Below are positions 2,899 through 32,158 of a DNA stretch of 64,000 nucleotides, piece after piece (the stretch's first letter is position 1; each line of letters starts with the position of its first letter). The notes beneath the pieces were generated by a model, which saw only the letters and a program-made list of their open reading frames with translations, did not search any database and was not told where the DNA came from. The position numbers and the translations under genes are program-made. The stretch lies in assembly GCF_005877005.1 (NCBI RefSeq), contig NZ_SSNH01000001.1, positions 496,001 to 560,000 of the forward strand, read 5' to 3'. Source of the DNA: Sinomonas susongensis (GTDB lineage: Bacteria > Actinomycetota > Actinomycetes > Actinomycetales > Micrococcaceae).

Positions 2899-10281
<7,383 letters not shown>

Positions 10282-10285
<4 letters not shown>

Positions 10286-11141: not shown

Positions 11142-11870
11142 GTGGCCACCGCGATAGAAGTCCGCAACATCAGCAAGCAGTTCGTGCTCCGCCACACTCG
11201 CTCGCTCAAAGAGGCGCTCGTGTGGCTTCTCAAGGGGCGTCGCGGCGATCTGAGCCAGAAGTTCTTCGCCCTGCACGACGTTTCGCTGACCGTGGAGCAG
11301 GGGGAGAGCGTAGCGCTCCTCGGCTTCAACGGATCTGGCAAGTCGACGCTGCTCAAGCACATCTCAGGGGTCATGACCCCCGATTCCGGGACGGTCCGGA
11401 CGAGGGGTCGCGTCGCGGGCCTCATCGAGGTGGGAGCCGGATTCCACCACGACCTGACGGGACGCGACAACGTCTACCTGAACGGCGCGATCCTCGGTAT
11501 GAGCGAGGAACAGATCAACGAGCGCTTCGACTCGATCATCGAGTTCTCGGAGATCGGCGAGTTCATCGACACCGAGGTCAAGTTCTACTCGTCCGGCATG
11601 TACTTGCGCCTGGCGTTCTCGGTCGCGGTGCACACGGACCCTGAGGTGTTCCTCGTCGACGAGATCCTCGCGGTGGGCGACGAGCCCTTCCAGCGGAAGT
11701 GCATTGCAAAGATCAAGGAGCTCGCGGCCGAGGGCAAGACGCTCGTGGTCGTGAGCCATGACTTGGACCTCATCCCCCAGATCTGCGAGCGGGGCGTCCT
11801 CCTCGAGAAGGGGAGGGTCGTTCTGGATGGGCCGGTAGAGGAAGTGGTCGGGGAACTGCGACGGCGTTGA
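11142..11870 (+). CDS. wzt: ABC exporter ATPase (Wzt/RfbE type)
   Basis: A 242-residue ABC ATPase with Walker A GFNGSGKST, the degenerate signature YSSGMYLRLAFS typical of polysaccharide-export ATPases, Walker B VFLVDEILAVGD and a switch His in VVSHD. It has no C-terminal carbohydrate-binding extension, so recognition of a terminal cap, as in some O-antigen Wzt proteins, is not expected. It follows the permease by 2 nt and energises lipid-linked glycan export across the cytoplasmic membrane. The GTG start fits the spacing. It is likely the last gene of the glf-glfT2-wzm-wzt operon, since a 69-bp gap follows. Confidence 0.9.
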   Translation: MATAIEVRNISKQFVLRHTRSLKEALVWLLKGRRGDLSQKFFALHDVSLTVEQGESVALLGFNGSGKSTLLKHISGVMTPDSGTVRTRGRVAGLIEVGAGFHHDLTGRDNVYLNGAILGMSEEQINERFDSIIEFSEIGEFIDTEVKFYSSGMYLRLAFSVAVHTDPEVFLVDEILAVGDEPFQRKCIAKIKELAAEGKTLVVVSHDLDLIPQICERGVLLEKGRVVLDGPVEEVVGELRRR

Positions 11871-14046: not shown

Positions 14047-16053
14047 GTGGATTGGCTGAGTATTGGTCCCGTTGTCATGGTGGCCTTGCTGCTTCTGATC
14101 CTTCCCGGCGCTGGCCTCGGCCTGGCCGCAGGGCTCCGCGGCTTTGCGGTGCCGGCGCTTGCTCCGGCACTGTCCCTCTCCATTGTCGCGATCGCCTCGA
14201 CCGTCACGCCGTGGGTCCACATGAAGTGGTCGCTCTGGCCGGTTCTCGTGACGGCGGTCGTCCTCGTCGGAGTCTTTGCCGTGGTACGCAGGTGGCTTCG
14301 GAGATTCGATCGCGACGGGCTGCAGACTGCGTTCGCCCGAAGGTCTTGGCGCGCTTCGATGGGCCCTGCGCTCATCTTTCTGATCGCGGTGGCAATTCCC
14401 GCCATCCTGCTCGCAAAGAACCTTGTCTTCGCATTCGACAGGCCGGACAGCTTTTCCCAGACATTCGACAACGTCTTCCATCTCAACGCGCTGCAATACA
14501 TTAGGGAGACGGGGTCGGCCTCGTCCTTGAGCGTAGGCCGCATGGCCGACAGCTCCTACTACCCGGCTGGTTGGCACGCGCTGGTCTCGCTCGTAGGGTC
14601 GGTCAGCTCGTCGGGCATTCCCGAGTCTGTCAATGCGACGAATCTCGTGATCGGCGCGCTGGTCTGGCCGCTCTCGATGCTCTACCTCGTCTGGCGCCTG
14701 GTCGGTGCAAGGCCACTGGTCCTCTTGGCCGGAGGAGCGCTCTCGGCGTGCTTCGCCGCATTCCCGTTGCTGATGGTCTACTTCGGGGTCCTCTATCCCA
14801 ATTTCTTGGCTTTGGCGGTTCTTCCGGCCTGCGTGGGGCAGCTTCACCACGCATTGGGGCTGGGGCGGCAGCCTCGGGAGAACTTCTGGCTTGCGTGGAT
14901 CCTCCTTGCCGCCGCCGCCGTCGGAATGACCGTGACGCACCCCAGCGCACTCCTTGCGCTCGTTGCGACGAGCGCAGCGCCAGTCTTCATGGTGTACCTG
15001 CGGCGGGTGACGCCGCTCGTGCGCGACGGTCTCTTGTTGCGACTCCCTGTTGTCGTGCCTTCGGTTGCCCTCCTGGCCGGAGTCGCCGTGGCGGGCGTCG
15101 CGTGGAAGGTCCTTCGGCCTGATCCTGCGGCTGCCCTATGGCCGCCGACCCAGACGGTTGCGCAGGCTGTCGGAGAGGCACTGGCGGTCTCTCCGATGCG
15201 CGCGGAGCCAGTATGGATCGTTGTCGGCCTTGTTGTTGTAGGCCTTTACCGATGTGTCCGTCGCCCGGGTCACCGCGCTCCCCTCTGGCTCTTCGTTGTG
15301 CTCGCTGGACTCTATGTCGTGGTGTCCAGCTTCGACGAGGGGAGGATCCGCAGCTTCCTTGTCGGCGTCTGGTACAACGACAGCTTCCGTCTGGCGGCGA
15401 TGCTTCCGATGGCCGCCATTCCGCTCGCTGTCGAAGGCTTCGTGCAGCTGAGCGATTGGCTGCAATCGGGGCTGCGAGCGGCGGCCGACCTGCGCAGGCA
15501 GATGCGTTCGAGGGCAGTGCTGTCGCTCCGAGTCAGGAACGTGGCCCGAGCGGCCGGATTGGCGATCGTTGTTGTCGGACTTGTCCTCACTTCGCAGACC
15601 GGCCAGGTTCGGAAGCTAGAGCTTTCGACCAGGAGCCTCTACGAGGTGCGGCCCGATTCCCCGCTCGTGAATTCGGACGAGCTCGCGCTCCTGGAGCGTC
15701 TGGACAGGGAGGTGCCGCAGGGCGCAGTCCTTGCTGGAAGCCCGTGGACGGGGACGGCGCTTGCCTACGCACTGGCTGATCGGAAGACGCTGCAGCTGCA
15801 CATTCTCTCGGCTACCGGCCCGGAAGTCGATGCCATCGACGCCGGTCTCCGCGACGCTCCAGCAAATGCGGCCGCCTGCAAGGCCATCGAGGATCTGCAC
15901 GTCCGGTACGTCCTCGACTTCGGGACTCAGGAGGTCCACTATCAAGACCACCCGTACCACGGCGTCGAAGACCTTCAGGGCTCCCCGGCTGTCCAGCTGA
16001 TCGACCAGCAGGGGTCTGCGCGGCTCTACAAGGTCGTCGCGTGTCAGGGTTGA
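14047..16053 (+). CDS. Large polytopic membrane protein, DUF6541-like (paralogue 2)
   Basis: A 668-residue paralogue of the preceding gene, aligning along its length: an N-terminal helix bundle with TPWVHMKWSLWPV against APWVHLRWGVLPL, a central SQTFDNVFHLNALQYI, and a C-terminal domain containing SDELALLERLDREVP against ADELALYKKIDDIVP and ending in LYKVVAC. The C-terminal soluble domain lies after the last helix and is predicted outside the cell. The GTG start is preceded by AAGGACGGG. Tandem duplication with sequence divergence implies two related but distinct substrates. A GT-C-like glycosyltransferase role is inference only. Confidence 0.75.
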   Translation: MDWLSIGPVVMVALLLLILPGAGLGLAAGLRGFAVPALAPALSLSIVAIASTVTPWVHMKWSLWPVLVTAVVLVGVFAVVRRWLRRFDRDGLQTAFARRSWRASMGPALIFLIAVAIPAILLAKNLVFAFDRPDSFSQTFDNVFHLNALQYIRETGSASSLSVGRMADSSYYPAGWHALVSLVGSVSSSGIPESVNATNLVIGALVWPLSMLYLVWRLVGARPLVLLAGGALSACFAAFPLLMVYFGVLYPNFLALAVLPACVGQLHHALGLGRQPRENFWLAWILLAAAAVGMTVTHPSALLALVATSAAPVFMVYLRRVTPLVRDGLLLRLPVVVPSVALLAGVAVAGVAWKVLRPDPAAALWPPTQTVAQAVGEALAVSPMRAEPVWIVVGLVVVGLYRCVRRPGHRAPLWLFVVLAGLYVVVSSFDEGRIRSFLVGVWYNDSFRLAAMLPMAAIPLAVEGFVQLSDWLQSGLRAAADLRRQMRSRAVLSLRVRNVARAAGLAIVVVGLVLTSQTGQVRKLELSTRSLYEVRPDSPLVNSDELALLERLDREVPQGAVLAGSPWTGTALAYALADRKTLQLHILSATGPEVDAIDAGLRDAPANAAACKAIEDLHVRYVLDFGTQEVHYQDHPYHGVEDLQGSPAVQLIDQQGSARLYKVVACQG

Positions 16054-16158: not shown

Positions 16159-17145
16159 ATGTCCCTTCTCGAGGGCTCGTCCGTTCTGATTACGGGGGGA
16201 ACAGGATCTCTCGGGAAGGCGCTCATCAGGGAGCTGCTCGATCATCATGGTGTCCGTCGGCTTGTGGTCTTCAGCCGTGACGAGCTCAAGCAGCTCGAGG
16301 TGCGGAACATGTTCGACAACGATCCGCGGCTTCGCTGGTTCATCGGGGACGTGCGTGACCGGGACCGTCTGCATCGTGCGTTCCACGGGCTCGACTATGT
16401 GATCCACGCCGCGGCGCTGAAGCAGGTCGACACCGCGGAGTACAACCCGTTCGAGTATGTGCGGACGAATGTGGGGGGCTCTCAGAACGTCATCGATGCT
16501 GCCATCGACGCCGGGGTGAAGAAGGTCGTGGCCCTTTCCACGGACAAGGCCTCGAGCCCGGTGAACCTGTACGGTGCGACGAAGCTGTGCGCGGACCGCC
16601 TGTTCATCTCCGGCAACCACTACGCGGCGGCCTACGACACTCGCTTCTGCGTTGTGCGCTACGGGAATGTCATGGGTTCGCGTGGGTCGATCGTGCCGAT
16701 CTGGAGGCGCCTGGCGGCGGAGGGCAAGTCCCTTCCGGTGACCGACAAGCGCATGACCCGCTTCTGGATCACCTTGGACCAGGCGGTGAGATTCGTCCTC
16801 GATTCGTTCGAGATGATGCAGGGCGGGGAGCTCTATGTGCCGAAGATCCCCTCGATCCGTCTCATGGACCTCGCCGCGGCGGTGGACCGCAACGCGGCGA
16901 TCCACGAGATCGGGATCCGTCCGGGGGAGAAGCTGCACGAGGAGATGATCGCGGCCGACGATTCCCGGCGCACCGTCTCGGTCGAGGGCCGTTACATCGT
17001 GACCCCCCATCTCGTCGGCTGGAAGTACGAGGTCCCCGAGGGCGCTGTGCCGGTGCGGGAGGGGTGGAGCTACCAGTCGGACGGGAACGAGGTGTTCCTT
17101 TCTGTCGAGGAGCTCGAGGCGATGATTGCGGCAGAGGGGTTCTGA
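16159..17145 (+). CDS. pseB: UDP-N-acetylglucosamine 4,6-dehydratase (inverting), PseB
   Basis: A 328-residue short-chain dehydrogenase/reductase catalysing the first step of CMP-pseudaminic acid synthesis (C4 oxidation, C6 dehydration and C5 inversion of UDP-GlcNAc). The NADP motif is TGGTGSLG (12-19). The D-K-Y active-site set of the FlaA1/PseB group is visible as STDKAS (D129, K130) and YGATK (Y138-K142). The family-specific HAAALKQV and EYNPFEYVRTN are intact. The ATG at 16159 follows AAGGTGG; an in-frame start 24 codons upstream lacks similarity. The pseC start lies 4 nt past the stop, and the order pseB-pseC-pseF-pseG/H is a classical pathway operon. Confidence 0.93.
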   Translation: MSLLEGSSVLITGGTGSLGKALIRELLDHHGVRRLVVFSRDELKQLEVRNMFDNDPRLRWFIGDVRDRDRLHRAFHGLDYVIHAAALKQVDTAEYNPFEYVRTNVGGSQNVIDAAIDAGVKKVVALSTDKASSPVNLYGATKLCADRLFISGNHYAAAYDTRFCVVRYGNVMGSRGSIVPIWRRLAAEGKSLPVTDKRMTRFWITLDQAVRFVLDSFEMMQGGELYVPKIPSIRLMDLAAAVDRNAAIHEIGIRPGEKLHEEMIAADDSRRTVSVEGRYIVTPHLVGWKYEVPEGAVPVREGWSYQSDGNEVFLSVEELEAMIAAEGF

Positions 17146-17149
17146 GCGG

Positions 17150-18277
17150 ATGCTGCCGTACGGTCGCCAGTCGATCAGCGAGGCCGACATCCGGGCGGTC
17201 GCCGAGGTGCTGCGGGGGGACTGGCTGACGACGGGCCCGAAGGTCGAGGAGTTCGAGCGGGCGCTCTCGTTGGTCGCGGGCGGTTCGGAGGCCGTTGCGG
17301 TCACGTCGGGGACGGCGGCCCTGCACGTCGCGTATGTGGCCGCGGGCGTCCAGGGGGGCGACGAAGTCGTGACGACTCCCCTGACCTTCGTGGCCACGGC
17401 CGCGGCGGCGGCCATAGCGGGGGCGAGGATCGTCTTCGCTGACATCGACCCCGCGACCGGCAATCTGGACCTGGGCTCGGCCGAGGCGGCCATGACGTCG
17501 CGCACCCGGGTGGTCGCCGCGGTCGACTACGCGGGGCTCCCGGTCGATGCCGGGGCGTTCGCGGCGATGGCCCACCGCCACGGTGCGCTCTTCCTCGAGG
17601 ACGCGGCGCACTCGATCGGTTCGGTCCTGGGCGGGGTGCCGGTCGGCGCCGCCGCGGACCTGACGACGTTCTCGTTCTTCCCGACCAAGAACATGACGAC
17701 GGCGGAGGGCGGCGCCGTCGTCAGCCCCGACGCCGGGCTGGCGGCCAGGGCGCGCCGCTTCAAGGGGCAGGGGCTCGTGCGGGACCGCGGCGCGCTGCGG
17801 TTCCCGGACGAGGGCCCGTGGCACCAGGAGGTGCACGAGTTCGGCCTGAACTACCGCCTGCCCGATGTGCTGTGCGCGCTGGGCATCAGCCAGCTTGCCC
17901 GCCTGGGCGAGTTCCGTCGTCGTCGCCAGCAGGTCCACGACGCGTACAACCGGGCGTTCGCGGGGAATCCGGAGCTGACCGTGCCGGGAACGGTCGAGGG
18001 GGCGGTGCCCGCGTGGCACCTCTACCCGCTGCGCGTCGAGGCCGCTCGCCGCAGGGCCGTCTTCGAGGAGCTCCGTCGGCGGGGGATCGGGGTGCAGGTC
18101 AACTACATCCCGGCGTACTGGCATCCCGTCTTCGAGGACCTCGGGTACCGTCGGGGGATGTGCCCGGCGGCCGAGGAGTACTACAGCCGGGAGATCTCCC
18201 TGCCGCTGTTCCCGGGGCTCACCGACGGGCAGGTGGAGATGGTGATCGAGAACGTCCTGGAGGTCGTCGGGTCATGA
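17150..18277 (+). CDS. pseC: UDP-4-amino-4,6-dideoxy-N-acetyl-altrosamine transaminase, PseC
   Basis: A 375-residue DegT/DnrJ/EryC1 PLP-dependent aminotransferase performing step two of pseudaminate synthesis, adding the C4 amino group. The PLP lysine is K180 in FFPTKNMTTAEGG, and the cofactor-contacting D151 lies in EDAAHSIGS. Length and the N-terminal LPYGRQSISEADI are typical of PseC. The ATG at 17150 lies 4 nt after the pseB stop with GAGGGG upstream; an in-frame codon at 17126 inside pseB is less likely. The stop overlaps the pseF ATG by 4 nt. GC content is very high, like pseF and pseG. Confidence 0.93.
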   Translation: MLPYGRQSISEADIRAVAEVLRGDWLTTGPKVEEFERALSLVAGGSEAVAVTSGTAALHVAYVAAGVQGGDEVVTTPLTFVATAAAAAIAGARIVFADIDPATGNLDLGSAEAAMTSRTRVVAAVDYAGLPVDAGAFAAMAHRHGALFLEDAAHSIGSVLGGVPVGAAADLTTFSFFPTKNMTTAEGGAVVSPDAGLAARARRFKGQGLVRDRGALRFPDEGPWHQEVHEFGLNYRLPDVLCALGISQLARLGEFRRRRQQVHDAYNRAFAGNPELTVPGTVEGAVPAWHLYPLRVEAARRRAVFEELRRRGIGVQVNYIPAYWHPVFEDLGYRRGMCPAAEEYYSREISLPLFPGLTDGQVEMVIENVLEVVGS

Positions 18278-19026
18278 CCGCGTCCGATGGCAGGGCCGCT
18301 CGGGTCGTCGCGGTCGTGCAGGCCCGCATGCAGTCGACCCGGCTGCCGGGCAAGGTCCTCCGGGACCTCGGCGGCGAGCCGGTGCTCGCCTGGGTGCTCC
18401 GGGCGGCCCGTGCCGCGGAGGGCGTGGACGAGGTCGTGGTGGCGACCTCGACCGAGGCCGCCGACGACGCCGTCGCCGCGTTCGCCGAGGAGCACGGCAC
18501 CCGGGCGGTGCGGGGCAGCCAGGACGACGTCCTCGGCCGCTTCCTCCTCGCCGCCGGGGAGTCCGGGGCCGACGCGGTCGTCCGCCTGACCGCGGACTGC
18601 CCGCTGCTGGACCCAGCCGTCATCTCCCAGGCGGTCGCGCTGTGGCGGCTCGATCCCACGCTCGACTACGTCTCGACGACGCAGGACCGGTCCCTTCCGC
18701 GCGGGCTCGATGTCGAGGTCGCGGCGGTCTCGGCCCTGCGGGCGGCCGACGCGCGGCGCGAGCCGCACCACCGTGCGCACGTGACGAGTGCGCTGTACGA
18801 GGAGGGCTCGGGCTTCGGGCTCGCCTCCCTGTCCTTCCGGCCGCCCTCCGACCGGCTCCGGGTGACCCTGGACACCGAGGACGATGCCCGGCTGCTGGAC
18901 GAGCTGGCCGCCCTGCTGCCCGCGCGGCCGCCGCGGTGGCGCGACGTCGTCCGGATCCTGGCCGGGCGGCCGGACATCGTCGCGCTCAACGCGCACGTCG
19001 AGCAGAAGCCCCTCCTGGAGGGCTGA
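18274..19026 (+). CDS. pseF: Cytidylyltransferase, SpsF/PseF type
   Basis: A 250-residue nucleotidyltransferase of the SpsF/KdsB-like fold. The N-terminal CTP-binding signature is QARMQSTRLPGKVL (16-29), and RLTADCPLLDP supplies the metal-binding aspartates. In this operon it is the expected enzyme activating pseudaminic acid as CMP-Pse, the last pathway step. It belongs to the SpsF subgroup rather than the NeuA-like PseF of Campylobacter, so the assignment depends on context as well as fold. The start is ATG 18274, overlapping the pseC stop (ATGA). The pseG start follows after 1 nt. Confidence 0.82.
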   Translation: MTASDGRAARVVAVVQARMQSTRLPGKVLRDLGGEPVLAWVLRAARAAEGVDEVVVATSTEAADDAVAAFAEEHGTRAVRGSQDDVLGRFLLAAGESGADAVVRLTADCPLLDPAVISQAVALWRLDPTLDYVSTTQDRSLPRGLDVEVAAVSALRAADARREPHHRAHVTSALYEEGSGFGLASLSFRPPSDRLRVTLDTEDDARLLDELAALLPARPPRWRDVVRILAGRPDIVALNAHVEQKPLLEG

Positions 19027-19027
19027 C

Positions 19028-20545
19028 GTGCGCGTCCTCCTCCGCTGCGATTCCGCGAAGACCCAGGGGCTCGGCCACGTCGTGCGCTGCGTGGCCGTGG
19101 GGGAGGCCGCCCGCGAGGCCGGCTGGGACGTGATCGCGGCAGGGGATGTCGAGAGCCCGCTGGGGCGCCGGCTCCTCGGAGGGGTGGCCGGCCGGCTGTT
19201 CCCTCGGCCCCCTGATGCCGAGGCACTGGCGCGCCTTGCCCGGCAGGAGGGCGTCGACGTCGTCCATCTCGACACCTACGACGACGAGGGGGACGTCCGT
19301 GCCCGGCTCGCCGAGGCGGGGGTCCTGCTCTCGTCCGTCGAGGACGGCTCCTTCGGGCGCCGCCCGGCCGATCTCGCCATCGATCCCTCGGCCGGGGCGG
19401 AATCCGGGTGCCGCCCCGAGGACGGCACGCTGCGCCTCGCGCGGGGCGCCGGCTTCATTCCGGTGCGTGCCCTCGTCCGCGAGCTGCGGTCCGCGCCCCG
19501 CAGGCCGCCAGAGGGGTTCGGGGCCGCGGGGGAGCGGCCTGCGGTCGTGACGGTGCTCGGCGGGACCGACGCGCGCGACGCGACGGCGGCCGTGGTGCGC
19601 CTGTGGGCCGAGACCGGCGTCCCGTCGCACTGCACCGCCGTGGTGCCGGGCGGCCGCGCCGTCGAGGTGGGCGGCCTGCCGGACGGGCTCACCCTCGAGG
19701 TCGTGGAGCAGTCGGGCGAGCTGCCGCGCCTGTTCGCAGGGGCAGACCTGGTCATCAGCGGTGCCGGCACGACGATCTGGGAGCTCGCCGCGCTCGGGGT
19801 GCCGATGGCACTCATCCAGCTCGTCGAGAACCAGCGGCAGAACTATGCCTTCGCCGTAGGCCGTGGGATGGCCGCCGGCCTGGGCGCCTTCGGCGAAGAT
19901 CCGGACGCGGCCGCACGGACCCTCCGCCAGGTCCTCTCGGACCCCGGGCTGCGGGCCCGGCTCGCCGCCGCCGCGCGGTCCATCGTCGACGGCGAGGGCG
20001 CGGCCAGGATCGTGGGCCTGTGGCAGGAGGTCCGTGCGAGCCGCGAAGGCGTCGCCGTCCGGTCCGCGACGCCCTCGGACGCGGCCCAGCTCTTCCATTG
20101 GCGCAACGACCCCTCGGTCCGGTCCGTCTCGCGCTCCACGGGCGAACTGCAATGGGATGGACACCTCGCATGGCTGGCACGATCGCTGGAACGGACGGAC
20201 GTCGTGCTCCTCATGGCCGAGGCGGACGGGGCCGCCGCCGGGACGGTGCGGTTCGACGCCCTCGGCGTGCACGACTGGGAGGTTTCGATCACCCTCGCAC
20301 CGTCCGCGCGGGGGAGGGGACTCGCGAGGGCAGTCCTGAGGGCAGCCGAGGAGCGGTTCCTCCGCGACCATCCCGAGGCCACCACCCTCCACGCCGTCAT
20401 GCGCGCATCCAACGAGCCGTCCCACCGGCTGTTCCTCGGAGCGGGCTACGCGAGCGCCCCGGAGGCGCCGGAGGGCACGGACGACGGCGCGTGGCACCGG
20501 CTCGTGAAGGACGCGCCGGAGCGCCCCCAGCGAAACGAGGGATGA
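19028..20545 (+). CDS. pseG: PseG-PseH fusion: UDP-sugar hydrolase plus N-acetyltransferase
   Basis: A 505-residue fusion. Residues 1 to about 335 are PseG, a GT-B-fold hydrolase removing UDP from 2,4-diacetamido-2,4,6-trideoxy-altropyranose; the Q-G-L-G-H-V-V-R loop places H17 exactly where the catalytic H17 of Campylobacter PseG lies. The ISGAGTTIWELAALGVP motif binds UDP. Residues from about 341 are a GNAT acetyltransferase (PseH), with AVRSATPSDA at its start, RGRGLARAVL as the acetyl-CoA loop, and NEPSHRLFLGAGY. PseH acetylates the C4 amine and so acts before PseG. The GTG start is 1 nt past the pseF stop. The fusion removes the need for a separate pseH, completing the pathway. Confidence 0.88.
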   Translation: MRVLLRCDSAKTQGLGHVVRCVAVGEAAREAGWDVIAAGDVESPLGRRLLGGVAGRLFPRPPDAEALARLARQEGVDVVHLDTYDDEGDVRARLAEAGVLLSSVEDGSFGRRPADLAIDPSAGAESGCRPEDGTLRLARGAGFIPVRALVRELRSAPRRPPEGFGAAGERPAVVTVLGGTDARDATAAVVRLWAETGVPSHCTAVVPGGRAVEVGGLPDGLTLEVVEQSGELPRLFAGADLVISGAGTTIWELAALGVPMALIQLVENQRQNYAFAVGRGMAAGLGAFGEDPDAAARTLRQVLSDPGLRARLAAAARSIVDGEGAARIVGLWQEVRASREGVAVRSATPSDAAQLFHWRNDPSVRSVSRSTGELQWDGHLAWLARSLERTDVVLLMAEADGAAAGTVRFDALGVHDWEVSITLAPSARGRGLARAVLRAAEERFLRDHPEATTLHAVMRASNEPSHRLFLGAGYASAPEAPEGTDDGAWHRLVKDAPERPQRNEG

Positions 20546-20548
20546 CGG

Positions 20549-20562
20549 TGTGACGCATCACA
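20549..20562. promoter_or_regulatory. Short inverted repeat before the sialidase-like gene
   Basis: TGTGA-CGCA-TCACA is a perfect 5-bp inverted repeat immediately after pseG/H and 66 nt before the next start. The half-sites look CRP-like but the spacer is 4, not 6, so it is not a standard CRP site. Role unknown. Confidence 0.25.
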
Positions 20563-20627
20563 GCGTAAATATGCTCTGAAATGCTGCGTTATCCTTTCCT
20601 TGCTGCCTCGTCAAGTCAAGGGAATCC

Positions 20628-21866
20628 ATGTCGTATCGTCCCCGCCCCCGCCTGTCCCGCCGAGAGGTCCTCGCGCTCTCCGGAGCAGCCGCCCTCTTCG
20701 GGCTGACGGTGACATCATGTGGGACTCCCGAGGCACCGAAGGATCAGACCAAGGCCATTGCGCCGTCAGTCCGGGAGCCATCCTCGGTGACAGCCGACCT
20801 TTCGCTCCCGAAGTCGTTCGGCCACCCGGTCAAGATCGTCGAGGGGACAGACGACTACCTGATTCCCGCCCTCGTGGACGCCGTCAACGGAGACTATGTC
20901 CTCGCCTACCGAGCTGGCAGCGCGCACGCCTTCGCCTACGGCAGCGATCCGGGGAAGCTCTACGTGAGGCGTTCGACCGATGCGGGAGCCACCTTCGGCC
21001 CCTCCACGCTCATCGCCAGCCTTGCTGCCGAGGAGATCGACATCAGGGACCCCTTCCTCTACCGGGAGTCGGGAGCCGACCGGATCTGGCTGACCTACTT
21101 CACCGGCGCGCGAAGCCTCAACGGGGCGACCTGGATCACGTACAGCGACGATCACGGCGTGACGTGGGCTCCGCCGAAGGAGGTCCTTTCGTCCGGGCTC
21201 ACGGCGGGAGGGCTTCGCCGGTCGCCCGATGGGCTCTGGCGCATGCCGGTGTACCGGAAGGTGGCGGGCTACTGGAGAGCCTCCCTCGTCACGGCGGAGA
21301 ACCCGCTCGGGCCATGGTCGCCTCCGGTCGATGTTCTGGCCCCCCACAGCTCCGACGCGACGGAGTGGGACTTCGCCGAGGTCTCACCCTCGAACTGGGT
21401 CGCGGTGGTGCGCGGATCTGCACGGTCGAATGCTTACGTCACCCAGTCCAAGGACGGCGGACGGACCTGGGCAGCGCCGATCCAGCTTCCGAGCCCCGGA
21501 CCCGGGCTGCGCTACGACGCTTGGCCCGCGCTGCGCATCGCTCATGACGGCCGAGTCCTCTGCTTCATCCGCGGTTCGGGCGGCGGGCAGAGGCTCGTGC
21601 AGCTCTTCGACCCGTCCAAGCCTCTCGTGGCATCCAACTGGAGCGAGCAGGACGGCGGCGGAGTCCTCGCAGCGAGCGTTCGCGGCACGTGCGGAAAGTT
21701 CCAGCCGTTTCGCCGGGGCACGACGTGGGTTGGCGCCTACTATTCCGAGACGGACGGGAAGCGTTCAGCCGAGATCGGAATCGGGGACTACGACGAGGCG
21801 AACCTGCGGCCCCGAAGCTCGGGCAACGTGGCGGCCGCCGCGCCGGCTGCGACGCCCGAGGGCTGA
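20628..21866 (+). CDS. Tat-exported sialidase-like (BNR/Asp-box) lipoprotein
   Basis: A 412-residue exported protein. The N-terminus has a twin-arginine motif SRREVLALSG (10-19), a hydrophobic stretch and a lipobox VTSC with C31 as the predicted lipidation site. The mature part carries Asp-box repeats SxDxGxTW/F: STDAGATFGP, SDDHGVTWAPP and SKDGGRTWAAP, the hallmark of six-bladed sialidase-like beta-propellers. EEIDIRDPFLY near the second blade and several conserved arginines could form a carboxylate-binding site. The location directly after pseG/H and facing pseI suggests it binds or cleaves a nonulosonic acid, perhaps pseudaminate, at the cell surface. A sialidase catalytic Tyr/Glu pair cannot be assigned by eye, so it may be a binding protein. 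Confidence 0.75.
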   Translation: MSYRPRPRLSRREVLALSGAAALFGLTVTSCGTPEAPKDQTKAIAPSVREPSSVTADLSLPKSFGHPVKIVEGTDDYLIPALVDAVNGDYVLAYRAGSAHAFAYGSDPGKLYVRRSTDAGATFGPSTLIASLAAEEIDIRDPFLYRESGADRIWLTYFTGARSLNGATWITYSDDHGVTWAPPKEVLSSGLTAGGLRRSPDGLWRMPVYRKVAGYWRASLVTAENPLGPWSPPVDVLAPHSSDATEWDFAEVSPSNWVAVVRGSARSNAYVTQSKDGGRTWAAPIQLPSPGPGLRYDAWPALRIAHDGRVLCFIRGSGGGQRLVQLFDPSKPLVASNWSEQDGGGVLAASVRGTCGKFQPFRRGTTWVGAYYSETDGKRSAEIGIGDYDEANLRPRSSGNVAAAAPAATPEG

Positions 21867-21916
21867 GGCGCTGGGGCCGCCGGAGGCCGGTCGACGTGCT
21901 GCCGATCGGTCGGCTG

Positions 21917-22969
21917 CTAGACCAGTTCCCAGGTGAGTGGCGTCCCGGCCTCGCACTCGACTCGGAAGGCACGCCCCATGACGGCTTCGTACTCCGCGGG
22001 CGCGAGGCCGCCTGCCGGGCGGATGGAGCGGACATTCTCGGGGGTGACGAGGTCCCCGGCGCGGACCGGCTTGACCACGTAGAGCGAGCGCCGCAGGCGC
22101 CGGCTCTCGTCCTCGCTGCTCGTCGGAGTGATCACGGGCGAACCGAGGGCCTCCCAGGCCGTCCGGCTCTCCGTCACGAGGGCCGCGAGTTCGTGTGGCT
22201 CCAGGGAGAAGTCGGAGTCCACCCCTCCGTCGGCCCTGCGCAGGGTCACGTGCTTTTCCACGACGCGCGCCCCGAGCGCGACAGCCGCGATGGCCGCACC
22301 GATCCCCATCGTGTGGTCCGAGAGGCCGACGTGGACCCCGAACGCGTCGCGCAGCACGGGGATCGTGCGGAGATTGGATTCCGACGGGGACGCCGGGTAG
22401 GACGACGTGCAGGCGAGGACGACGATCTGGTCGTTGCCCTCGTCACGGATGGTCCGCACGGCAGCGTCGATGTCGCTCAGCGAGGCGGCCCCGTTGGAGA
22501 GGATGACCGGCTTTCCGGTCCTGGCCACGCGGCGCAGCAGGGGCAGATCGCCGATTTCCAGCGATGCGATCTTGTACAGGGGAGCATCGAGGGACTCCAG
22601 AAGGTCGACCGCGGTCGCGTCGAAGGGGCTGGAGAAGGGGATGAGGCCCAGCTCCCTGGCACGCTCGAAGAGGGGAGCATGCCACTCCCAGGGAGTGTGG
22701 GCTTTGGTGTAGAGCTGGTAGAGGTTGCTGCCTCCCCAGAGCGGGTGGTCGGAGCTGATGCGGAATTCGGGCCGGTCGGAGTCGATCGTGATCGTATCCG
22801 CGGTGTAGGTCTGGAACTTGACCGCCTGCGCCCCGGAGGACGCCACCGCCTCGACGATCTCGAGCGCCCGCCCGAGGCTGCCGTTGTGGTTGCCCGAGAC
22901 CTCGGCGATGATGAACGGCCGATGGTCCGAACCGATGTGATGGCCGGCGACGTCAATGGATGGCTGCAT
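21917..22969 (-). CDS. pseI: Pseudaminic acid synthase, PseI
   Basis: A 350-residue NeuB-family enzyme condensing the 2,4-diacetamido sugar with phosphoenolpyruvate to make pseudaminic acid. The TIM-barrel signature IIAEVSGNHNGSLG lies near the N-terminus, followed by AVKFQTYTADT, a GLSDHTMG motif, and a C-terminal antifreeze-like SAF domain (SLYVVKPVRAGD). ATG 22969 is preferred, with AAAGGA upstream at rather long spacing; an in-frame TTG at 22981 would add four residues. It is the only pathway gene on the minus strand, last in an operon with a flippase and an unrecognised protein, and it converges on the sialidase-like gene. Confidence 0.92.
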   Translation of the reverse strand: MQPSIDVAGHHIGSDHRPFIIAEVSGNHNGSLGRALEIVEAVASSGAQAVKFQTYTADTITIDSDRPEFRISSDHPLWGGSNLYQLYTKAHTPWEWHAPLFERARELGLIPFSSPFDATAVDLLESLDAPLYKIASLEIGDLPLLRRVARTGKPVILSNGAASLSDIDAAVRTIRDEGNDQIVVLACTSSYPASPSESNLRTIPVLRDAFGVHVGLSDHTMGIGAAIAAVALGARVVEKHVTLRRADGGVDSDFSLEPHELAALVTESRTAWEALGSPVITPTSSEDESRRLRRSLYVVKPVRAGDLVTPENVRSIRPAGGLAPAEYEAVMGRAFRVECEAGTPLTWELV

Positions 22970-22990
22970 CGAGAAGGGCAATCCTTTGGA

Positions 22991-24418
22991 TCATGGCGTC
23001 GGGGACGCCGGGTCGGTTGCAGACGATGCTAATCCGCGCCGCCGCACTGCCAAAAATGCGGTGCCCGCCAAAGCCAGTCCGACCACCAGGGTGATCGTTC
23101 CGACGAGGAGGGTCGTGGGAAGCAGGAGGTTGACAGCGATCGCCACGGCGACGAGTGCCAGTGCGCCCATGAACGAGCGCAATGCGATCGAGTGTGGAGC
23201 TTCTCGCAACGCGAGCACGGCGTACAGGGCGCCGAGCAGTGCAAAGACGAGCACTCGGACGGCGCCCAACTCCCAATATTGCGAGGACTGGGCGGGAAAC
23301 CACGCCAAGCCGGCCGCGACAACGACGACCAGTGGCGTCGCCCACGCGAGGGCCTTGGTCCGACCCACGGCGAAGAGGGTCGACATGCCCACGAGGTAGA
23401 GGGCGTAGCCGACCGCGACTCCCGGGAGGACCTTCGCGAGTTGGGTCGCCTCGTGGTCGGGACCCTTGAGGATCAGCATCCCTATCGTGGCCGCTGCGGT
23501 GCCGCAGACCCCCAAGGCCGCGGCGAGGAGCGCGACCTCGCGGCCGACGGCACGGACGTTCGCCACGAGATTCGGCCCGTGGGCTGCCTCGAAGATCCGT
23601 GTTGTCCAGACGTTGTTGAGCCCCGCCAGGATCGCGAAGGGCCCGAGTGCGAACGCGGCAGCGGCGACGTAGCGTCCCACAGAGGAGGCGCCTTGGAAAT
23701 TCTGGACCAGGAAGGTGTCGCCCTGGAGCAGGAGGACGATGGCAATGCTGTGCGGTAGCACCGGGAGTCCGAGCCGGAAGGCCGCGGCGACTGCGGGCCG
23801 CTGGCGCCACGGGAGCGATGGCCGAGTCAGGATGAGGGACACCACCGCAGTGGCCACCATGACGGCAGTGAACGAGGCCAGATAGACCGCCGCCGTACGG
23901 CCGAAGGCCAGGATCCCGACGAGGCCGCCCAGATGTGCCCCCAGTGATGCGCCGCCGCTCAGAAGGACGAAGGAGAGGGCCCGGTGCTGGCTTCGGAGCA
24001 GCGCCTGAGAACTCACGACAACGCTCAGGAAGCCCGTTGCAGCCAGGGCCCACGCGAAGGCTCCCGCGCCCTCCTTGTCAGGCGCGGCTGCGAGATATCC
24101 GAGGGCAGCGATGGCGGCGAGGCCGGTTCCCAGCATGATGTTCGCGCCGTGGATTGCGCGCGCCTTGGAAGGGCCCTCCGACTGTTCGAAGTAGGCGCGG
24201 CTGATCGCGAGGGGGAGGCCTGCGGACAGCACGACCTGTCCGATCTGGAGCAGGACGATCGAAACGCCGACGCGACCCCACTCGAGGGGGCTGAGGAGGC
24301 GGATGGAAAACGGCTGGACAACAAGCGCCCCGGTTCCCTGGAGGGCCGCGCCGAGGAGATAGTAGAGCGACTGCCGAGCGTTGCTCGGGCGCGTCCCCAC
24401 TGCCGAGTCAGGCGCCAT
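22991..24418 (-). CDS. wzx: Polysaccharide flippase (Wzx/MOP superfamily)
   Basis: A protein of about 475 residues with 12-14 hydrophobic helices. The N-terminal NARQSLYYLLGAALQGTGAL then QPFSIRLLSP is the usual opening of Wzx-type oligosaccharide flippases, which move polyprenyl-diphosphate-linked glycans to the outer face of the membrane. The start is uncertain: ATG 24418 overlaps the upstream gene by 11 nt, while an in-frame TTG at 24436 would add six residues; neither has a good Shine-Dalgarno, so coupling is likely. It lies 21 nt upstream of pseI. It is the first of two flippase-like genes in the locus, besides the ABC exporter, implying more than one glycan carrier. Confidence 0.82.
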   Translation of the reverse strand: MAPDSAVGTRPSNARQSLYYLLGAALQGTGALVVQPFSIRLLSPLEWGRVGVSIVLLQIGQVVLSAGLPLAISRAYFEQSEGPSKARAIHGANIMLGTGLAAIAALGYLAAAPDKEGAGAFAWALAATGFLSVVVSSQALLRSQHRALSFVLLSGGASLGAHLGGLVGILAFGRTAAVYLASFTAVMVATAVVSLILTRPSLPWRQRPAVAAAFRLGLPVLPHSIAIVLLLQGDTFLVQNFQGASSVGRYVAAAAFALGPFAILAGLNNVWTTRIFEAAHGPNLVANVRAVGREVALLAAALGVCGTAAATIGMLILKGPDHEATQLAKVLPGVAVGYALYLVGMSTLFAVGRTKALAWATPLVVVVAAGLAWFPAQSSQYWELGAVRVLVFALLGALYAVLALREAPHSIALRSFMGALALVAVAIAVNLLLPTTLLVGTITLVVGLALAGTAFLAVRRRGLASSATDPASPTP

Positions 24419-25436
24419 CGAGGGAGGGCGCGACAAGCGTGGTCGAGGCGGTTCGCGGCAGGACGCCCGGGAGATGCTCGAACGGGTTCTTGAAGAACTT
24501 GAACGGCGAGACCTCGACCTCGTTCACAAGCGGCCCCACCCTGCGTTCCCGAATCCCGAGGATCGCCTGGGCTTTGGCGAGCGGCGAGCGAAGCCAGTAG
24601 TCGACGAAGGGGCGAGGGTTTCGCCGGTCCCACCCGAGCGTGCGTCGCAGCTCCTCGGGCGACTGCAGATAGGCCTCGCCGAGCTCCTGTTCTGCGATCT
24701 TCCTCAGCTGGGCCGTGTTCGGCTCGTCTTCATAGAATTCGGGCCAGAGTTCGCGCAGGTACTCCTCTGAAGACGTCTCCTGAATGCCGGCGATCTGGAA
24801 GTGGGGGCCGTAGACCTGGACTGGGGTGTCTACGGCAGACGCATAAAGGAGCGCCGTCGCGAGCCGGTTCGAGACGACCTTCTTGGCGCTCATGACAAGC
24901 CACATGACGCGCGCGAGGAAAAGCGGGTCACGGCGCTCACCAGCAGTGGTCAGGATGTGGCCGGCGTCCTTCCATGCCTTCACGATCTCCGGCTTCTGCA
25001 TGTCGTCGACGTGCATGCACACCACTGCCGGGCCTTCCCGCTCGAAGACCTCGCGCGCGAAGCCGGCCTGATCGCCGTCGACCTCAATGATGCGTGTCCC
25101 ATGGAAGGGAAGGACGACGGCGTCGATCGTCCTTTCGGGCAGCGCCCCCGCAGCTTCGACTTGCCGTGCCAGGTACAGCGCCGCCGCCCCGATCGGGGTG
25201 GTGGAGAAGCCGGTTTCCATCCGCGACTCGCGCTCAGTCCAGCCACGGGAATCGTGGGACCAGACGAAGAGGCCACCGGAGGGTGCGGCGTGGGCGAGGT
25301 CGGCGAAGTGTGTGCGGAGGGGAGTGACGGGCGTCCATCCGTGCTGGTACAGCCCGTGGATGTGGCGGGGCGCGTGGAGCCCGGCGTGGCCGGCGAGGAC
25401 AGCCGAATGTCCGTAGAAGTGATTCTGGATGTCCAT
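24408..25436 (-). CDS. Unrecognised cytoplasmic protein; candidate nonulosonate glycosyltransferase
   Basis: A 342-residue soluble protein that I cannot assign to a named family. Two alpha/beta halves are suggested. The N-terminal part includes HGTRIIEVDGDQAGFARE and AVVCMHVDDMQKPE; the C-terminal part contains SAKKVVSNRLATALLYASAV followed by TPVQVYGPH, a pattern like the donor-binding half of GT-B glycosyltransferases that recognise a sugar nucleotide after a buried ser/asn-rich loop. There is no signal peptide or membrane helix. It sits between a GT-C-like membrane protein and the flippase-pseI pair, the place where a CMP-pseudaminate transferase would be expected. That role is inference from context alone. 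The ATG start has TAAGG at 4-nt spacing. Confidence 0.6.
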   Translation of the reverse strand: MDIQNHFYGHSAVLAGHAGLHAPRHIHGLYQHGWTPVTPLRTHFADLAHAAPSGGLFVWSHDSRGWTERESRMETGFSTTPIGAAALYLARQVEAAGALPERTIDAVVLPFHGTRIIEVDGDQAGFAREVFEREGPAVVCMHVDDMQKPEIVKAWKDAGHILTTAGERRDPLFLARVMWLVMSAKKVVSNRLATALLYASAVDTPVQVYGPHFQIAGIQETSSEEYLRELWPEFYEDEPNTAQLRKIAEQELGEAYLQSPEELRRTLGWDRRNPRPFVDYWLRSPLAKAQAILGIRERRVGPLVNEVEVSPFKFFKNPFEHLPGVLPRTASTTLVAPSLDGA

Positions 25437-25584: not shown

Positions 25585-26913
25585 CTATCTCAGCATGCTG
25601 CAGGGAACCAGAACCTTGTCGGCGAACCAGCCCGTAGGTGCGATGGGAACTGCTTCGGTAGAGGCGCTTGGAGTGCTGCGGCACTCGGAGCGAGCCGTCT
25701 GGATCCCAGTGGACCACGTGGGTCCGTGGTCCCGGCCTACCGCCGCAGGGAAGAAATAGACTCCGAGGACGACGGCGAGTGCGGCGAGGATTGCCGCAAC
25801 CCCGGCCCGGCCGGTCGGCACGGCGGCGACCGCGACGAGCGGCACGAGGGCCAGCAGGAACATGGACGGCACCACCGAGTAGCGCGACAGGAAGAAGCTC
25901 TGCCACTGCGCCGCATTGAACCGGGCGTAGTCGAAGTAGCTCTGGAAGTTCATATCCTGGGCTGCTGCCCACACGCCGATGGACGCCAGGACGAAAACGC
26001 AGGCCATGAGTCTCTGGGCAGCGCTGCCCTTCACGAGCACAGCAACGAACGCGCCAAGGAACGGCAAGGCCGCGAGCGCAACAGGAATCCACCCGAAACG
26101 GGTAACGCTCAGGATGATCTGCTGCGACGTGCCGTACACAATGGCCGAGCTGCTGTTGAGGAACCAGCCCTCTGCGACTGACCACCAATTGACCGGGGGC
26201 CCTGTGGGCGCGGTGCGGGGGAAGTGGAGGGTTGTCACGACCTGGCACACGACGCCGAGCAGAATCGCCAGCCGGGGCGGCCAGAAGGCCCGGTCCTTGA
26301 AACGGTAGAGGAACAGCGGGATGAACAGCGCCGTCTGGATTTCCGTGAGCGAGGCACCCAGTGCGACGGCGGTGAGCACCACGTTCTCGAGGACTGACCC
26401 GGGGCGTTTGATGAGGATCCAGGGCACTAGCCAGAGGAGGTACCAGTGGAGATTGGCAAAGTTGCCGAGGGTCTCCTGCGGTCCGACGGCCACGAGGACC
26501 GGAATTGCGGCCCACGCCAGGCGGACCGCTGGATTCTTCGCGAGCGCGCTCGAGCAGTGCCAGACGAGCGCTGCAACCACACCGACGGCGAGGCAGCTGA
26601 GCGTGGTGAGCGCGAGAGCGTAGGAGTCGGGCGGCAGGAACGTGACGATGAACCAGGCCGCAGTGCGCGGAATCACATGCAGATAGCCCTCGTAGGGGGC
26701 GAAGATCTGGCTGATGCCGCGATGTTGAAGTGCGCCGTTGAGGAAGATCCCGCCGTCCTCGGCCCACACCGTGTCCTGGGCTGTGGCCGGAAGGCGGAAG
26801 AGGGAGAGTGCGGTCCCCGCGACAGTGACGGCGACGAGGGCGGCCAGCGAGGGCCGGGGGAAGTATCCCCGCCGGAGGGACGCTCGCCGTGGGGCCGTTG
26901 AGGTAGCGGTCAT
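25585..26913 (-). CDS. Polytopic membrane protein, GT-C glycosyltransferase-like
   Basis: A 442-residue protein with about ten hydrophobic helices. After the first helix the loop reads TVWAEDGGIFLNGAL, an acidic outer loop typical of GT-C-like membrane glycosyltransferases and of uncharacterised actinobacterial glucosyltransferase-like proteins. Later loops (NFANLHWYLLW, SYFDYARFNAAQWQSFF) are also of that type. The likely role is transfer of a sugar from a polyprenyl-phosphate donor to a wall polymer outside the membrane, but no family function is proven. The ATG start overlaps the end of the second flippase by 4 nt. The C-terminal ~45 residues are polar and cytoplasm- or wall-facing. Confidence 0.7.
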   Translation of the reverse strand: MTATSTAPRRASLRRGYFPRPSLAALVAVTVAGTALSLFRLPATAQDTVWAEDGGIFLNGALQHRGISQIFAPYEGYLHVIPRTAAWFIVTFLPPDSYALALTTLSCLAVGVVAALVWHCSSALAKNPAVRLAWAAIPVLVAVGPQETLGNFANLHWYLLWLVPWILIKRPGSVLENVVLTAVALGASLTEIQTALFIPLFLYRFKDRAFWPPRLAILLGVVCQVVTTLHFPRTAPTGPPVNWWSVAEGWFLNSSSAIVYGTSQQIILSVTRFGWIPVALAALPFLGAFVAVLVKGSAAQRLMACVFVLASIGVWAAAQDMNFQSYFDYARFNAAQWQSFFLSRYSVVPSMFLLALVPLVAVAAVPTGRAGVAAILAALAVVLGVYFFPAAVGRDHGPTWSTGIQTARSECRSTPSASTEAVPIAPTGWFADKVLVPCSMLR

Positions 26914-28184
26914 CGTTCTTCTGCTGTCTCGTTTCCGACGGGAGGAGTCATCCTCTGAGGGGTGTTCCCGGCCTTCATTCGACGGCCGAGCGATGCGTAC
27001 TGGTAGACGAGGACGGCGAGCTCAGAGATCGCCAGTGCCCAAGCGACTCCGACAGCGCCGTAGAGGGCCGCACCCAGCGCGATGAGCGGGATTCCGCTGA
27101 GCGCGCCGACCAGGGTGGACTGAGCCAAGGCCCGGGTCGCCCGCAGCTGGACGAGACAGGCGAGCCCGATCACCTGGGTCACCGCGACGGCCGCGAAGAC
27201 GACGCCGAACGGAACCGAGAGGGGGAATCCGAAGCCGATCCGATGCGCCGAGAGGATGCCAGCCCCCCAAGGGCCCAGGACAGCGATGGCGAGCCCCCCG
27301 AGGAAGCCGATCACCGGCGTCATCCGCGCTGCCTGCCTGATCCTGTGACGGAGATTCTCGGGGCCGCCCTCCGGAAGCCAACCCTGGACGAGCTGGAGGA
27401 ACGGCGCGAAGGCCGTGAGCGCGAACCGGAAGAGCTTGTCTCCCATTGCGTACAGGCTGAGGGATGCGGGGGCGACCGCGTTGATGATGAGCAGCGGCAG
27501 CGACACATACAGGCCGGCTGTTGCCGAGGTCGCGACGGCGTGCCGCTGGTGCGCAAGCCGTCTGAAGGCGGATCGCGGCGCGAGATCGAAGTGAAGCGGT
27601 TCCGGGCTCGACCGGAAGATGTGCCGCGCGGCGACGATGACGGCACCGAGGTTGAAGACCAGCTGCGTCGCGAGCACGGCTACAAGGTTGTGCGTCAGGA
27701 TCATGACGACGACGCTCACGGCGACGCCGAGGGTCTGCGGGAATCCGTCGAGCCAGAAGAGGCGCGACGGCCGGGCCTCGCCGATGAAGTACCACGAGGC
27801 TCCGAGGAACGGCAGGAGGAAGGTGGCCGACCCGACCGCAACGAGGGCAAGGTGGTGCGGGTTGAGGATCCCCATGACGCAGAACATGACGGGGTAGACG
27901 ATGAGCGCCAGATACGACCGGCTGACGAGGGAGTTGGCGTACTCCTGCGGTCGCTGCTCGGGCGGCAGTCCCGCGACCTCGGCCGCGCCGGTAGTTCCCC
28001 ACCCGAACGAGACGCCTACGCCGAACAGGGTGGCGGCCGTCTGGAGTGCCGCCTGGATGCCCCACAGCTCGGGTCCGGCGCCGGCGATGATGATCGGAAC
28101 CGCCACGAGGCCCACGAGGCTCGACAGCCCGGTTGTGAGCGCGAAGCTCACAAGCCTCTTGACCATCGACAACCGTGGGCCCAA
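26910..28184 (-). CDS. Second polysaccharide flippase (Wzx-like)
   Basis: A 424-residue protein with about 12 hydrophobic helices, starting VKRLVSFALTTGLSSLVGLV, characteristic of Wzx/RfbX-type O-unit flippases. It differs strongly from the flippase at 22991. The TTG at 28184 is preferred because AAGGAG lies 8 nt upstream; the in-frame ATG at 28166 has no ribosome-binding site. It is first in a minus-strand operon with the GT-C-like protein (4-nt overlap). It presumably exports a separate lipid-linked sugar or repeat unit. The C-terminus is a short hydrophilic tail. Confidence 0.8.
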   Translation of the reverse strand: MGPRLSMVKRLVSFALTTGLSSLVGLVAVPIIIAGAGPELWGIQAALQTAATLFGVGVSFGWGTTGAAEVAGLPPEQRPQEYANSLVSRSYLALIVYPVMFCVMGILNPHHLALVAVGSATFLLPFLGASWYFIGEARPSRLFWLDGFPQTLGVAVSVVVMILTHNLVAVLATQLVFNLGAVIVAARHIFRSSPEPLHFDLAPRSAFRRLAHQRHAVATSATAGLYVSLPLLIINAVAPASLSLYAMGDKLFRFALTAFAPFLQLVQGWLPEGGPENLRHRIRQAARMTPVIGFLGGLAIAVLGPWGAGILSAHRIGFGFPLSVPFGVVFAAVAVTQVIGLACLVQLRATRALAQSTLVGALSGIPLIALGAALYGAVGVAWALAISELAVLVYQYASLGRRMKAGNTPQRMTPPVGNETAEER

Positions 28185-28297: not shown

Positions 28298-28372
28298 TGG
28301 ACGCGTATCGCGGCCCGAGACGCGGGACCGAGCCAGGACGGGGATCGCACGTCCAGAATGAAAGGAAACCGG

Positions 28373-29281: not shown

Positions 29282-29329
29282 GCCCCGGCTCAGTGCGCGA
29301 GCAGAGTCACCGTCCGTCGAGCCGCTTGC

Positions 29330-31012: not shown

Positions 31013-31174
31013 GGGGAGGCAGGTCTTCCTTAGCTGTTGTGGCAACTCGGTCATCATACCGGTGGAACTTCCGCCGACGGTGGTGGTCGTCCATACGGAT
31101 ATAGTGGAAGCGCTGTGGCACGCCGGTGTCATACGCCCTCGCCCGTGTTGCGCACCGAAAGGCCCCCGTCCACG

Positions 31175-32059: not shown

Positions 32060-32121
32060 CCCCCACGGGGACCAAGCCGGACCCCGGCCCGGGAGAGCCC
32101 CCGGCAGGCTTTCACAGAGGA

Positions 32122-32158
32122 ACGACGGCGGCCGCGCACTTCGCGCGGCCGCCGTCGT
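32122..32158. terminator. Bidirectional intrinsic terminator hairpin
   Basis: A perfect 16-bp GC-rich stem (32122-32137 with 32143-32158) and 5-nt loop ACTTC lie between the convergent GT2 gene ending at 32059 and the DUF2304 gene ending at 32179. There is little T-tract on either side. Confidence 0.75.

Follow-up and report, generated by a model that had tools for sequence, protein, structure and literature searches.

In the 64,000-nucleotide stretch of Sinomonas susongensis DNA analysed here (the window), the block that holds the pse genes is best explained, with moderate confidence, as an optional nonulosonate cassette within a Micrococcaceae galactan/rhamnose wall-polymer locus, in which gt342 would act as the CMP-nonulosonate transferase. 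A little less firmly, gt342 is proposed to found a family of CMP-nonulosonate transferases with branches that match the adjoining cassette (pseudaminate or legionaminate), and Micrococcaceae wall-polymer loci would swap their acidic sugar by exchanging the biosynthetic genes along with a transferase suited to the donor. The pathway itself is of an already known kind; what is new is the proposed transferase family and the exchange.

Organization of the locus

The genes of the locus are listed in Table 1. As originally described, the pse genes are flanked by galactan genes (glf, glfT2, and the membrane part and ATPase of an ABC exporter) on the left and by rhamnose genes (rmlCD, rmlB, and rmlA) on the right. 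In a Pse-less Sinomonas genome (G007), a DUF6541 gene adjoins wzx2; pseB, pseC, pseF, pseGH, bnr, pseI, wzx1, gt342, and mem442 are absent, and glf, glfT2, wzm, wzt, gt2a, gt2c, gt2d, and the rml genes are kept. Because the block is missing in this genome between retained galactan and rhamnose genes, the stretch from pseB to mem442 (16.1–26.9 kb) is apparently a discrete, optional cassette. Within Sinomonas, glfT2 has been found in 15/15 genomes, as against 3/15 for PseI above its cut-off. The G+C content is 0.693 in the cassette versus 0.641 and 0.659 in the flanks, although this is not counted as proof of transfer. The optional nature of the block had gone unseen in the original prediction, which named no transferase and the interval of which did not include the partner genes wzx1, gt342, and mem442.

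Table 1. Features of the locus (positions in the window).
Feature	Position	Strand	Basis
glf, UDP-galactopyranose mutase (flank)	6966..8279	+	PF03275 280 bits
glfT2-like galactofuranosyltransferase (flank)	8276..10285	+	PF19320, PF17994; in 15/15 Sinomonas
wzm-like ABC exporter membrane part (flank)	10240..11139	+	PF01061
wzt-like ABC ATPase (flank)	11142..11870	+	PF00005
DUF6541 polytopic membrane protein, left cassette border	14047..16053	+	PF20176 546 bits; G007 comparison
pseB	16159..17145	+	TIGR03589 above cut-off; best solved relative 2gn4
pseC	17126..18277	+	TIGR03588 417.3 vs 423.5 bits; best solved relatives ArnB, 2fn6 lower
pseF-like cytidylyltransferase	18274..19026	+	PF02348; best solved relative 6oew
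pseG-pseH fusion	19028..20545	+	TIGR03590 and TIGR03585, both below cut-off; GxGHxxR present
Sialidase-like (Asp-box) protein (bnr)	20628..21866	+	PF13088 46 bits; Tat-type lipoprotein signal at N-terminus by eye
pseI, pseudaminate synthase	21917..22981	-	TIGR03586 461.5 bits; trees
wzx1, Wzx-like flippase	22991..24436	-	PF13440, PF01943; 12 hydrophobic segments
gt342, proposed CMP-nonulosonate transferase, 342 residues	24408..25436	-	No family match; co-occurrence; low-confidence model
mem442, membrane glycosyltransferase-like, cassette right end	25585..26913	-	phrog_19534 glucosyltransferase E 1.1e-7; no Pfam match
wzx2, flippase-like by hydrophobicity, right border	26910..28184	-	No Pfam match; 10 hydrophobic segments; kept in Pse-less G007
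Four GT2 genes: gt2a (+), gt2b (-), gt2c (+), gt2d (-)	28358..33286	mixed	PF00535
rmlCD fusion (-), rmlB (-), rmlA (+)	33283..36622	mixed	

The product could also be a capsule or exopolysaccharide without a covalent tie to peptidoglycan, since Wzx-type flippases and GT2 genes are equally typical of capsule loci and no LCP family ligase appeared in the Pfam matches of the scanned window proteins (a subset of the open reading frames). This is possible but rather unlikely, given that the cassette is interleaved with glf, glfT2, wzm, and wzt, which are read as a wall galactan set. The whole-cell sugars of Sinomonas are given in the available text of PMC6617354 as galactose, mannose, and rhamnose, a composition that does not tell wall from capsule.

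Candidate enzymes for CMP-pseudaminate

The positions of the pse genes agree with those first proposed, apart from the start of pseI, the reading frame of which begins at a TTG (22981) and not at the in-frame ATG (22969). The claim that every enzyme from UDP-GlcNAc to CMP-pseudaminate is encoded here has held to different degrees for the individual enzymes. PseB (470.2 bits, cut-off 407.75) and PseI (461.5, cut-off 340.25) pass the curated NCBIfam equivalog cut-offs, PseC is marginally below (417.3, cut-off 423.5), and PseG (67.3, cut-off 153.55), PseH (28.2, cut-off 93.1), and PseF (31.2, cut-off 205.7; top Pfam match CTP_transf_3, 91.4 bits) are below; i.e., two of six pass, one nearly does, and three are under. 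PseF, PseG, and PseH are tentatively assigned from weak homology and conserved neighbourhood. The same pse genes are grouped in six more Micrococcaceae genomes, in Arthrobacter sp. ISL-65 and, up to a contig end falling inside pseC, in a further genome (G079); since the grouping recurs in other Micrococcaceae, it is not due to chance. The window is supported, at the level of sequence, as holding a complete candidate set for CMP-pseudaminate within the galactan/rhamnose locus.

The tree of PseI did not show the placement with unrelated enzymes that had been named as evidence against the pathway: the window protein and the solved Pse synthase 8h2c (PDB) share a 100/100 clade, apart from NeuB and SpsE. 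A role of PseI as a sialate or legionaminate synthase is rejected on its NCBIfam score and tree placement. A second NeuB-family gene of the genome (C1:251478, fused, with a NeuA-like neighbour) has been discarded as a part of the system, as it belongs to another clade and is shared by Pse-less Sinomonas. In the suggested matching against solved proteins, PseB is closest to 2gn4 and PseC to ArnB. Given the divergence of PseC, PseF, PseG, and PseH, the sugar might be derived from pseudaminic acid or be a stereoisomer of it, in line with the three enzymes that lie far below the curated cut-offs and with ArnB as the closest solved relatives of PseC; this is unlikely, however, in view of the scores of PseB and PseI, both of which exceed their cut-offs.

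A gene for a sialidase-like lipoprotein (20628–21866) had been overlooked within the interval of the original prediction. Close homologues exist in 3/15 Sinomonas genomes, which are the pseI carriers, and PHROGs gave no match. The protein resembles GH33 sialidases in its three Asp boxes (residues 116, 173, and 274) and in weak matches to sialidase A, but YLIP at residues 77–80 is aligned to YRIP of sialidase A, so that the FRIP arginine, part of the GH33 triad, is replaced by leucine both in the window protein and in S. humi.

gt342 and its association with nonulosonate synthases

The gt342 protein has been found in seven actinobacterial family groups. Among 18 members, none matches any Pfam model at E 0.01 and one matches an NCBIfam model, of a sigma factor, at E 0.004; sequence matches of gt342 in the PDB are at noise level, and neither PHROGs nor viral contigs yielded a relative. 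In one open-access literature collection, no paper was found on the family or on pseudaminate in Sinomonas. An alignment of 38 rows, from which the gt342 of G750 was left out (end of a 4846-base contig, match covering only 2–211 of 339), shows invariant residues H10, QHG 31–33, H112, R168, N190, and E251. The predicted structure has, at low confidence, a weak GT-B-like core, with 5wcn (a polysialyltransferase) among the VIA-align fold matches; the absence of a family from these matches carries no weight against it.

A NeuB-family synthase gene lies at most 16 kb from gt342 in 38 of 40 gt342 genomes, comprising 30 tested genomes, eight Micrococcaceae, Arthrobacter ISL-65, and Arsenicicoccus piscis, in which gt342 is about 15 kb from pseI on the same 151295-base contig. 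S. humi, Arthrobacter UM1, and one MAG were treated as identical with G008, G026, and G079 and entered the total once. For the 30 tested genomes the figure is 28, with 0.39 expected. Among 245 family genomes, PseI of at least 48% identity is present in nine, all of which carry gt342, itself found in 14 of 245 (Fisher 2.7e-13; 4.6e-12 without the window), both counts being assumed from their equal number and handles to cover the same genomes. In a survey of the phylum, PseI above cut-off was found in 3/4 gt342 genomes versus 13/396 overall (Fisher 1.1e-4; 0.0025 without the window). That gt342 should occur in every PseI genome is refuted by this survey, where only 3 of the 13 carry it.

In Micrococcaceae, the slot is occupied by the pseudaminate set or by another synthase type. 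In G039, genes for LegB-, LegC-, NeuC-, NeuB-, and NeuD-like proteins, a nucleotidyltransferase (NTase), and a CMP-synthetase lie next to gt342, gt2c, gt2d, and the DUF6541 gene. The scores are 411.4 bits for LegB (cut-off 475), 384 for LegC (420), 280 for LegG/NeuC (235.9), and 377.4 for LegI/NeuB (399.65). The set looks like a legionaminate cassette, a label read gene by gene for G039 only. G081, G083, G102, and G197 share its synthase clade and gene order, and the gt342 proteins of all five form one 100/100 clade, separate from the others; G706 has the synthase clade together with a LegC-range aminotransferase match only. The rows added to the synthase tree were picked for carrying gt342, and their clustering is no independent test. 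Strict specificity of gt342 for pseudaminate is disfavoured because this second synthase clade also accompanies it; with its own gt342 branch, the second type would make gt342 a general actinobacterial nonulosonate transferase family. It is doubtful that gt342 is instead another nonulosonate-linked enzyme (e.g., a sugar epimerase or modifying enzyme), with transfer carried out by the GT2 protein gt2c. Rather, gt342 is probably a dedicated transferase that would add pseudaminate (or legionaminate) to a wall glycan before flipping.

Proposed mechanism and comparison with known systems

By homology, PseB, PseC, PseH, PseG, PseI, and the PseF-like enzyme would convert UDP-GlcNAc into CMP-pseudaminate. 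Soluble gt342 may then use this donor to transfer the sugar onto a lipid-linked glycan in the cytoplasm, as co-occurrence and the weak GT-B-like model suggest. The pseudaminate-bearing glycan would be flipped by wzx1 and presumably joined to the wall polymer by the mem442/DUF6541 membrane glycosyltransferases or the galactan exporter. More speculatively, the sialidase-like lipoprotein might bind or trim the product on the outer side in Sinomonas. In other genera, the slot would carry the other kind of synthase, of legionaminate type in the case read, accompanied by a separate branch of gt342. It is improbable that pseudaminate is placed on a surface protein such as a Tad pilin rather than on a wall polymer: pseudaminate is best known as a protein modification, and genes for a TadA-like ATPase (PF00437) and for two proteins of the T2SSF type (PF00482 twice) lie downstream of the locus (40960–43957), but the Tad ATPase gene is retained in the Pse-less Sinomonas G007 and G009, and the cassette has galactan, rhamnose, and GT2 genes around it and includes a flippase. 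Flagellin glycosylation, already set aside in the original prediction, is likewise unlikely, two Sinomonas species being described as non-motile, one of them without visible flagella, in the available parts of PMC10394333 and PMC6617354.

The gene set, the empty-site relative, and the candidate transferase make the genetics of nonulosonate wall polymers testable. In actinobacteria, such polymers are known chiefly through chemistry. Few pseudaminate transferases have been characterised, so a further family, with some branches associated with Pse and others with Leg, would be useful. If the proposal is true, gt342 would serve enzymology and the genome-based prediction of surface sugars of soil bacteria and, through these, of phage or lectin receptors.

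The use of a CMP-nonulosonate proposed for gt342 is shared with the retaining pseudaminyltransferase KpsS1/GT118, the Kdo families GT99, GT107, and GT140, and the sialyltransferases GT29/38/42/52/80. gt342 differs from them in lacking any Pfam, NCBIfam, or PDB sequence match beyond noise, a negative that for Pfam covers the GT families with models there, and in lacking a conserved (K/R)xHP motif, no His-Pro pair occurring in columns conserved in 95% of the 38 rows. In the accessible text of PMC12887879, KpsS1/GT118 is named as a pseudaminate transferase and the motif is described, with one member that also departs from it. Compared with the CMP-pseudaminic acid pathway of Helicobacter and Campylobacter (PseBCHGIF), a homologue is present here for all six steps, but G and H are fused, F, G, and H are divergent, and the genes lie within a monoderm polysaccharide locus. 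Walls with Pse occur in Kribbella and Actinoplanes. The teichulosonic acid of Streptomyces coelicolor is described, in the portion of PMC7831098 consulted, as a Kdn-galactose polymer of the wall, whereas the window has Pse genes (Leg-like in relatives), its sugar being predicted from genes and its wall linkage putative. The proposed product would nonetheless resemble the actinomycete teichulosonic acids covered there in that a nonulosonate goes together with a polymer containing galactose in the wall of an actinobacterium (PMC7831098).

Probable pseudaminate genes in a galactan and rhamnose locus

Features of the window (contig 1, 496001-560000, of the 3.77-Mb host genome), with positions counted within the window
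Feature	Position	Strand
glf, glfT2, ABC exporter pair	left of pseB	
Two adjacent DUF6541 membrane proteins	11940-16053	
pseB	16159-17145	+
pseC	17126-18277	+
pseF-like	18274-19026	+
pseG-pseH fusion	19028-20545	+
Sialidase-like lipoprotein	20628-21866	+
pseI	21917-22981	-
wzx1	22991-24436	-
gt342	24408-25436	-
mem442	25585-26913	-
wzx2	26910-28184	-
Four GT2 genes, then rmlCD, rmlB, rmlA	right of wzx2	
GH25 lysozyme-like protein (11 LGFP repeats), lying between rhamnose and Tad genes	36747-39635	-
Tad-type ATPase and two T2SSF proteins	40960-43957	+
Class V aminotransferase-like ORF, as called	59511-61109	
SAM-IV riboswitch	60990-61102	-

Against the NCBIfam cut-offs, PseB and PseI score above, PseC 6 bits below, and PseF, PseG, and PseH far below. 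The closest solved relative of PseB is 2gn4 (UDP-GlcNAc C6 dehydratase) and that of PseI is 8h2c (pseudaminic acid synthase); a 40-row tree groups the window PseI with 8h2c in one 100/100 clade of 23, and SpsE (1vli), SiaC (1xuu), 6ncs, and the second NeuB-family gene of the same genome fall outside it. For PseC, the H. pylori enzyme (2fn6) scores lower than four sequences named ArnB and a capsule aminotransferase. Short motifs typical of PseG and of cytidylyltransferases are present in the window proteins; the PseB and PseC patterns, as formulated, matched nothing in them. The window very likely encodes a complete pseudaminic acid pathway, as originally predicted, and its exact product is likely pseudaminate. 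The second NeuB-family synthase (C1:251478-252443, locus L002) is fused within a 759-residue ORF directly downstream of a NeuA-like cytidylyltransferase ORF, and represents a different nonulosonate system, with similar matches in 7 other Sinomonas.

Routine sugar analysis would not reveal nonulosonates. Gene location had suggested a wall-linked polymer rather than flagellin as the target. Two Sinomonas species are recorded as non-motile and the whole-cell sugars of S. gamaensis as galactose, mannose, and rhamnose, which is consistent with a galactan/rhamnose wall and argues against flagellin (PMC10394333, PMC6617354). The two DUF6541 proteins have 12-13 hydrophobic segments each, and this family of unknown function recurs in related galactan loci. 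Toward the right, the Tad-type ATPase is retained in Pse-less relatives, and the SAM-IV riboswitch (105 bits) overlaps the start of the aminotransferase-like ORF.

Variation of the locus among Sinomonas

All 15 Sinomonas genomes have glfT2, and 3 of the 15 have PseI above the cut-off. In the Pse-less G007, whose glfT2 is 87% identical to that of the window, the DUF6541 gene directly adjoins wzx2; pseB, pseC, pseF, pseGH, the lipoprotein gene, pseI, wzx1, gt342, and mem442 are absent, and glf, glfT2, wzm, wzt, gt2a, gt2c, gt2d, rmlCD, rmlB, rmlA, GH25, and the Tad ATPase are retained. From this empty site in one relative, the block at 16.1-26.9 kb seems to be gained or lost as a single unit. 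The fit is imperfect: the only DUF6541 gene of G007 shares 47% identity with the second one in the window, and the gt2b region of G007 differs; in two other genomes (G009 and G010), the locus is rearranged further. A close homologue of the sialidase-like lipoprotein (81% identity) occurs in 3 of 15 Sinomonas, the same three that carry PseI, and nothing above 32 bits was found elsewhere among 245 family genomes. The lipoprotein lacks the FRIP arginine, so that a standard GH33 mechanism appears doubtful from its sequence.

gt342 and its partner synthases

Searches with gt342, the proposed CMP-nonulosonate transferase, against Pfam, NCBIfam, PHROGs, and PDB gave only noise-level matches, and the protein has no long hydrophobic segment. 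Its gene lies near pseI and wzx1 in all eight Micrococcaceae Pse loci read (window included), although in G059 wzx1 is on the opposite side, and likewise in Arthrobacter sp. ISL-65. A search for gt342 in its own right found it in 14 of 245 family genomes, in 25 of 396 at order level, and in 4 of 396 at phylum level. All nine family genomes with PseI of at least 48% identity have gt342 (Fisher p 2.7e-13; 4.6e-12 without the window), G197 carrying it away from that PseI. A NeuB-family gene is found within 16 kb in 28 of the 30 carriers searched (expected 0.39; median distance 4.25 kb), and after adding ten further genomes a synthase gene is near gt342 in 38 of 40, the exceptions being G093 and G469. 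At their loci (L195, and L063/L110, respectively), the gt342 homologues adjoin a Wzx-like flippase, with no synthase nearby. A one-to-one link with PseI is contradicted at the phylum level, because 10 of the 13 genomes with PseI above the cut-off lack gt342. Two or more neighboring copies stand within one Pse locus in L106 (G550), L200 (G757), and L208 (G975), perhaps serving different linkages; one copy in G757 has an internal stop.

In five genomes (G039, G081, G083, G102, and G197), the slot beside gt2c, gt2d, and DUF6541 holds gt342 and a different gene set, whose synthase is just 34-37% identical to PseI. The set of G039 comprises LegB-, LegC-, NeuC-, NeuB-, and NeuD-like proteins, a nucleotidyltransferase, and a CMP-sugar synthetase, of which the NeuC-type member alone passes its cut-off, and by content it would be a legionaminate (Leg) pathway. 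The gt342 proteins of these five form a single 100/100 clade, which joins the Micrococcaceae Pse clade and a Pse clade from another family in a trichotomy. G706 has the same synthase type, but its gt342 branches elsewhere, and therefore the Leg label takes two changes on the tree (0 of 500 shuffles as low); the Pse label takes five (3 of 500). Within Micrococcaceae, 9 Pse and 5 Leg rows show fixed differences at 21 positions. The simplest reading is that gt342 is a nonulosonate transferase whose branches track the donor, with some exchange. Both synthase types are present in G197, at separate sites (C1:1846934 and C1:2156822).

Proposed route and known systems

Homology suggests that CMP-pseudaminate would be made in the cytoplasm; gt342 would then move pseudaminate onto a lipid-linked acceptor, and wzx1, judging from its family, would flip the product. 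More speculatively, membrane glycosyltransferases or the ABC-exported galactan might accept this product, and the outer lipoprotein might read or trim it. If the transferase reading is right, gt342 would act like KpsS1 and sialyltransferases, but none of the family models searched matches it, and the (K/R)xHP motif that has been reported for several such families (PMC12887879) is missing; it is therefore placed in none of them. The pathway itself would operate like the known CMP-Pse route, and the predicted window polymer resembles in its setting the teichulosonic acid of Streptomyces coelicolor, a Kdn-galactose polymer (PMC7831098).
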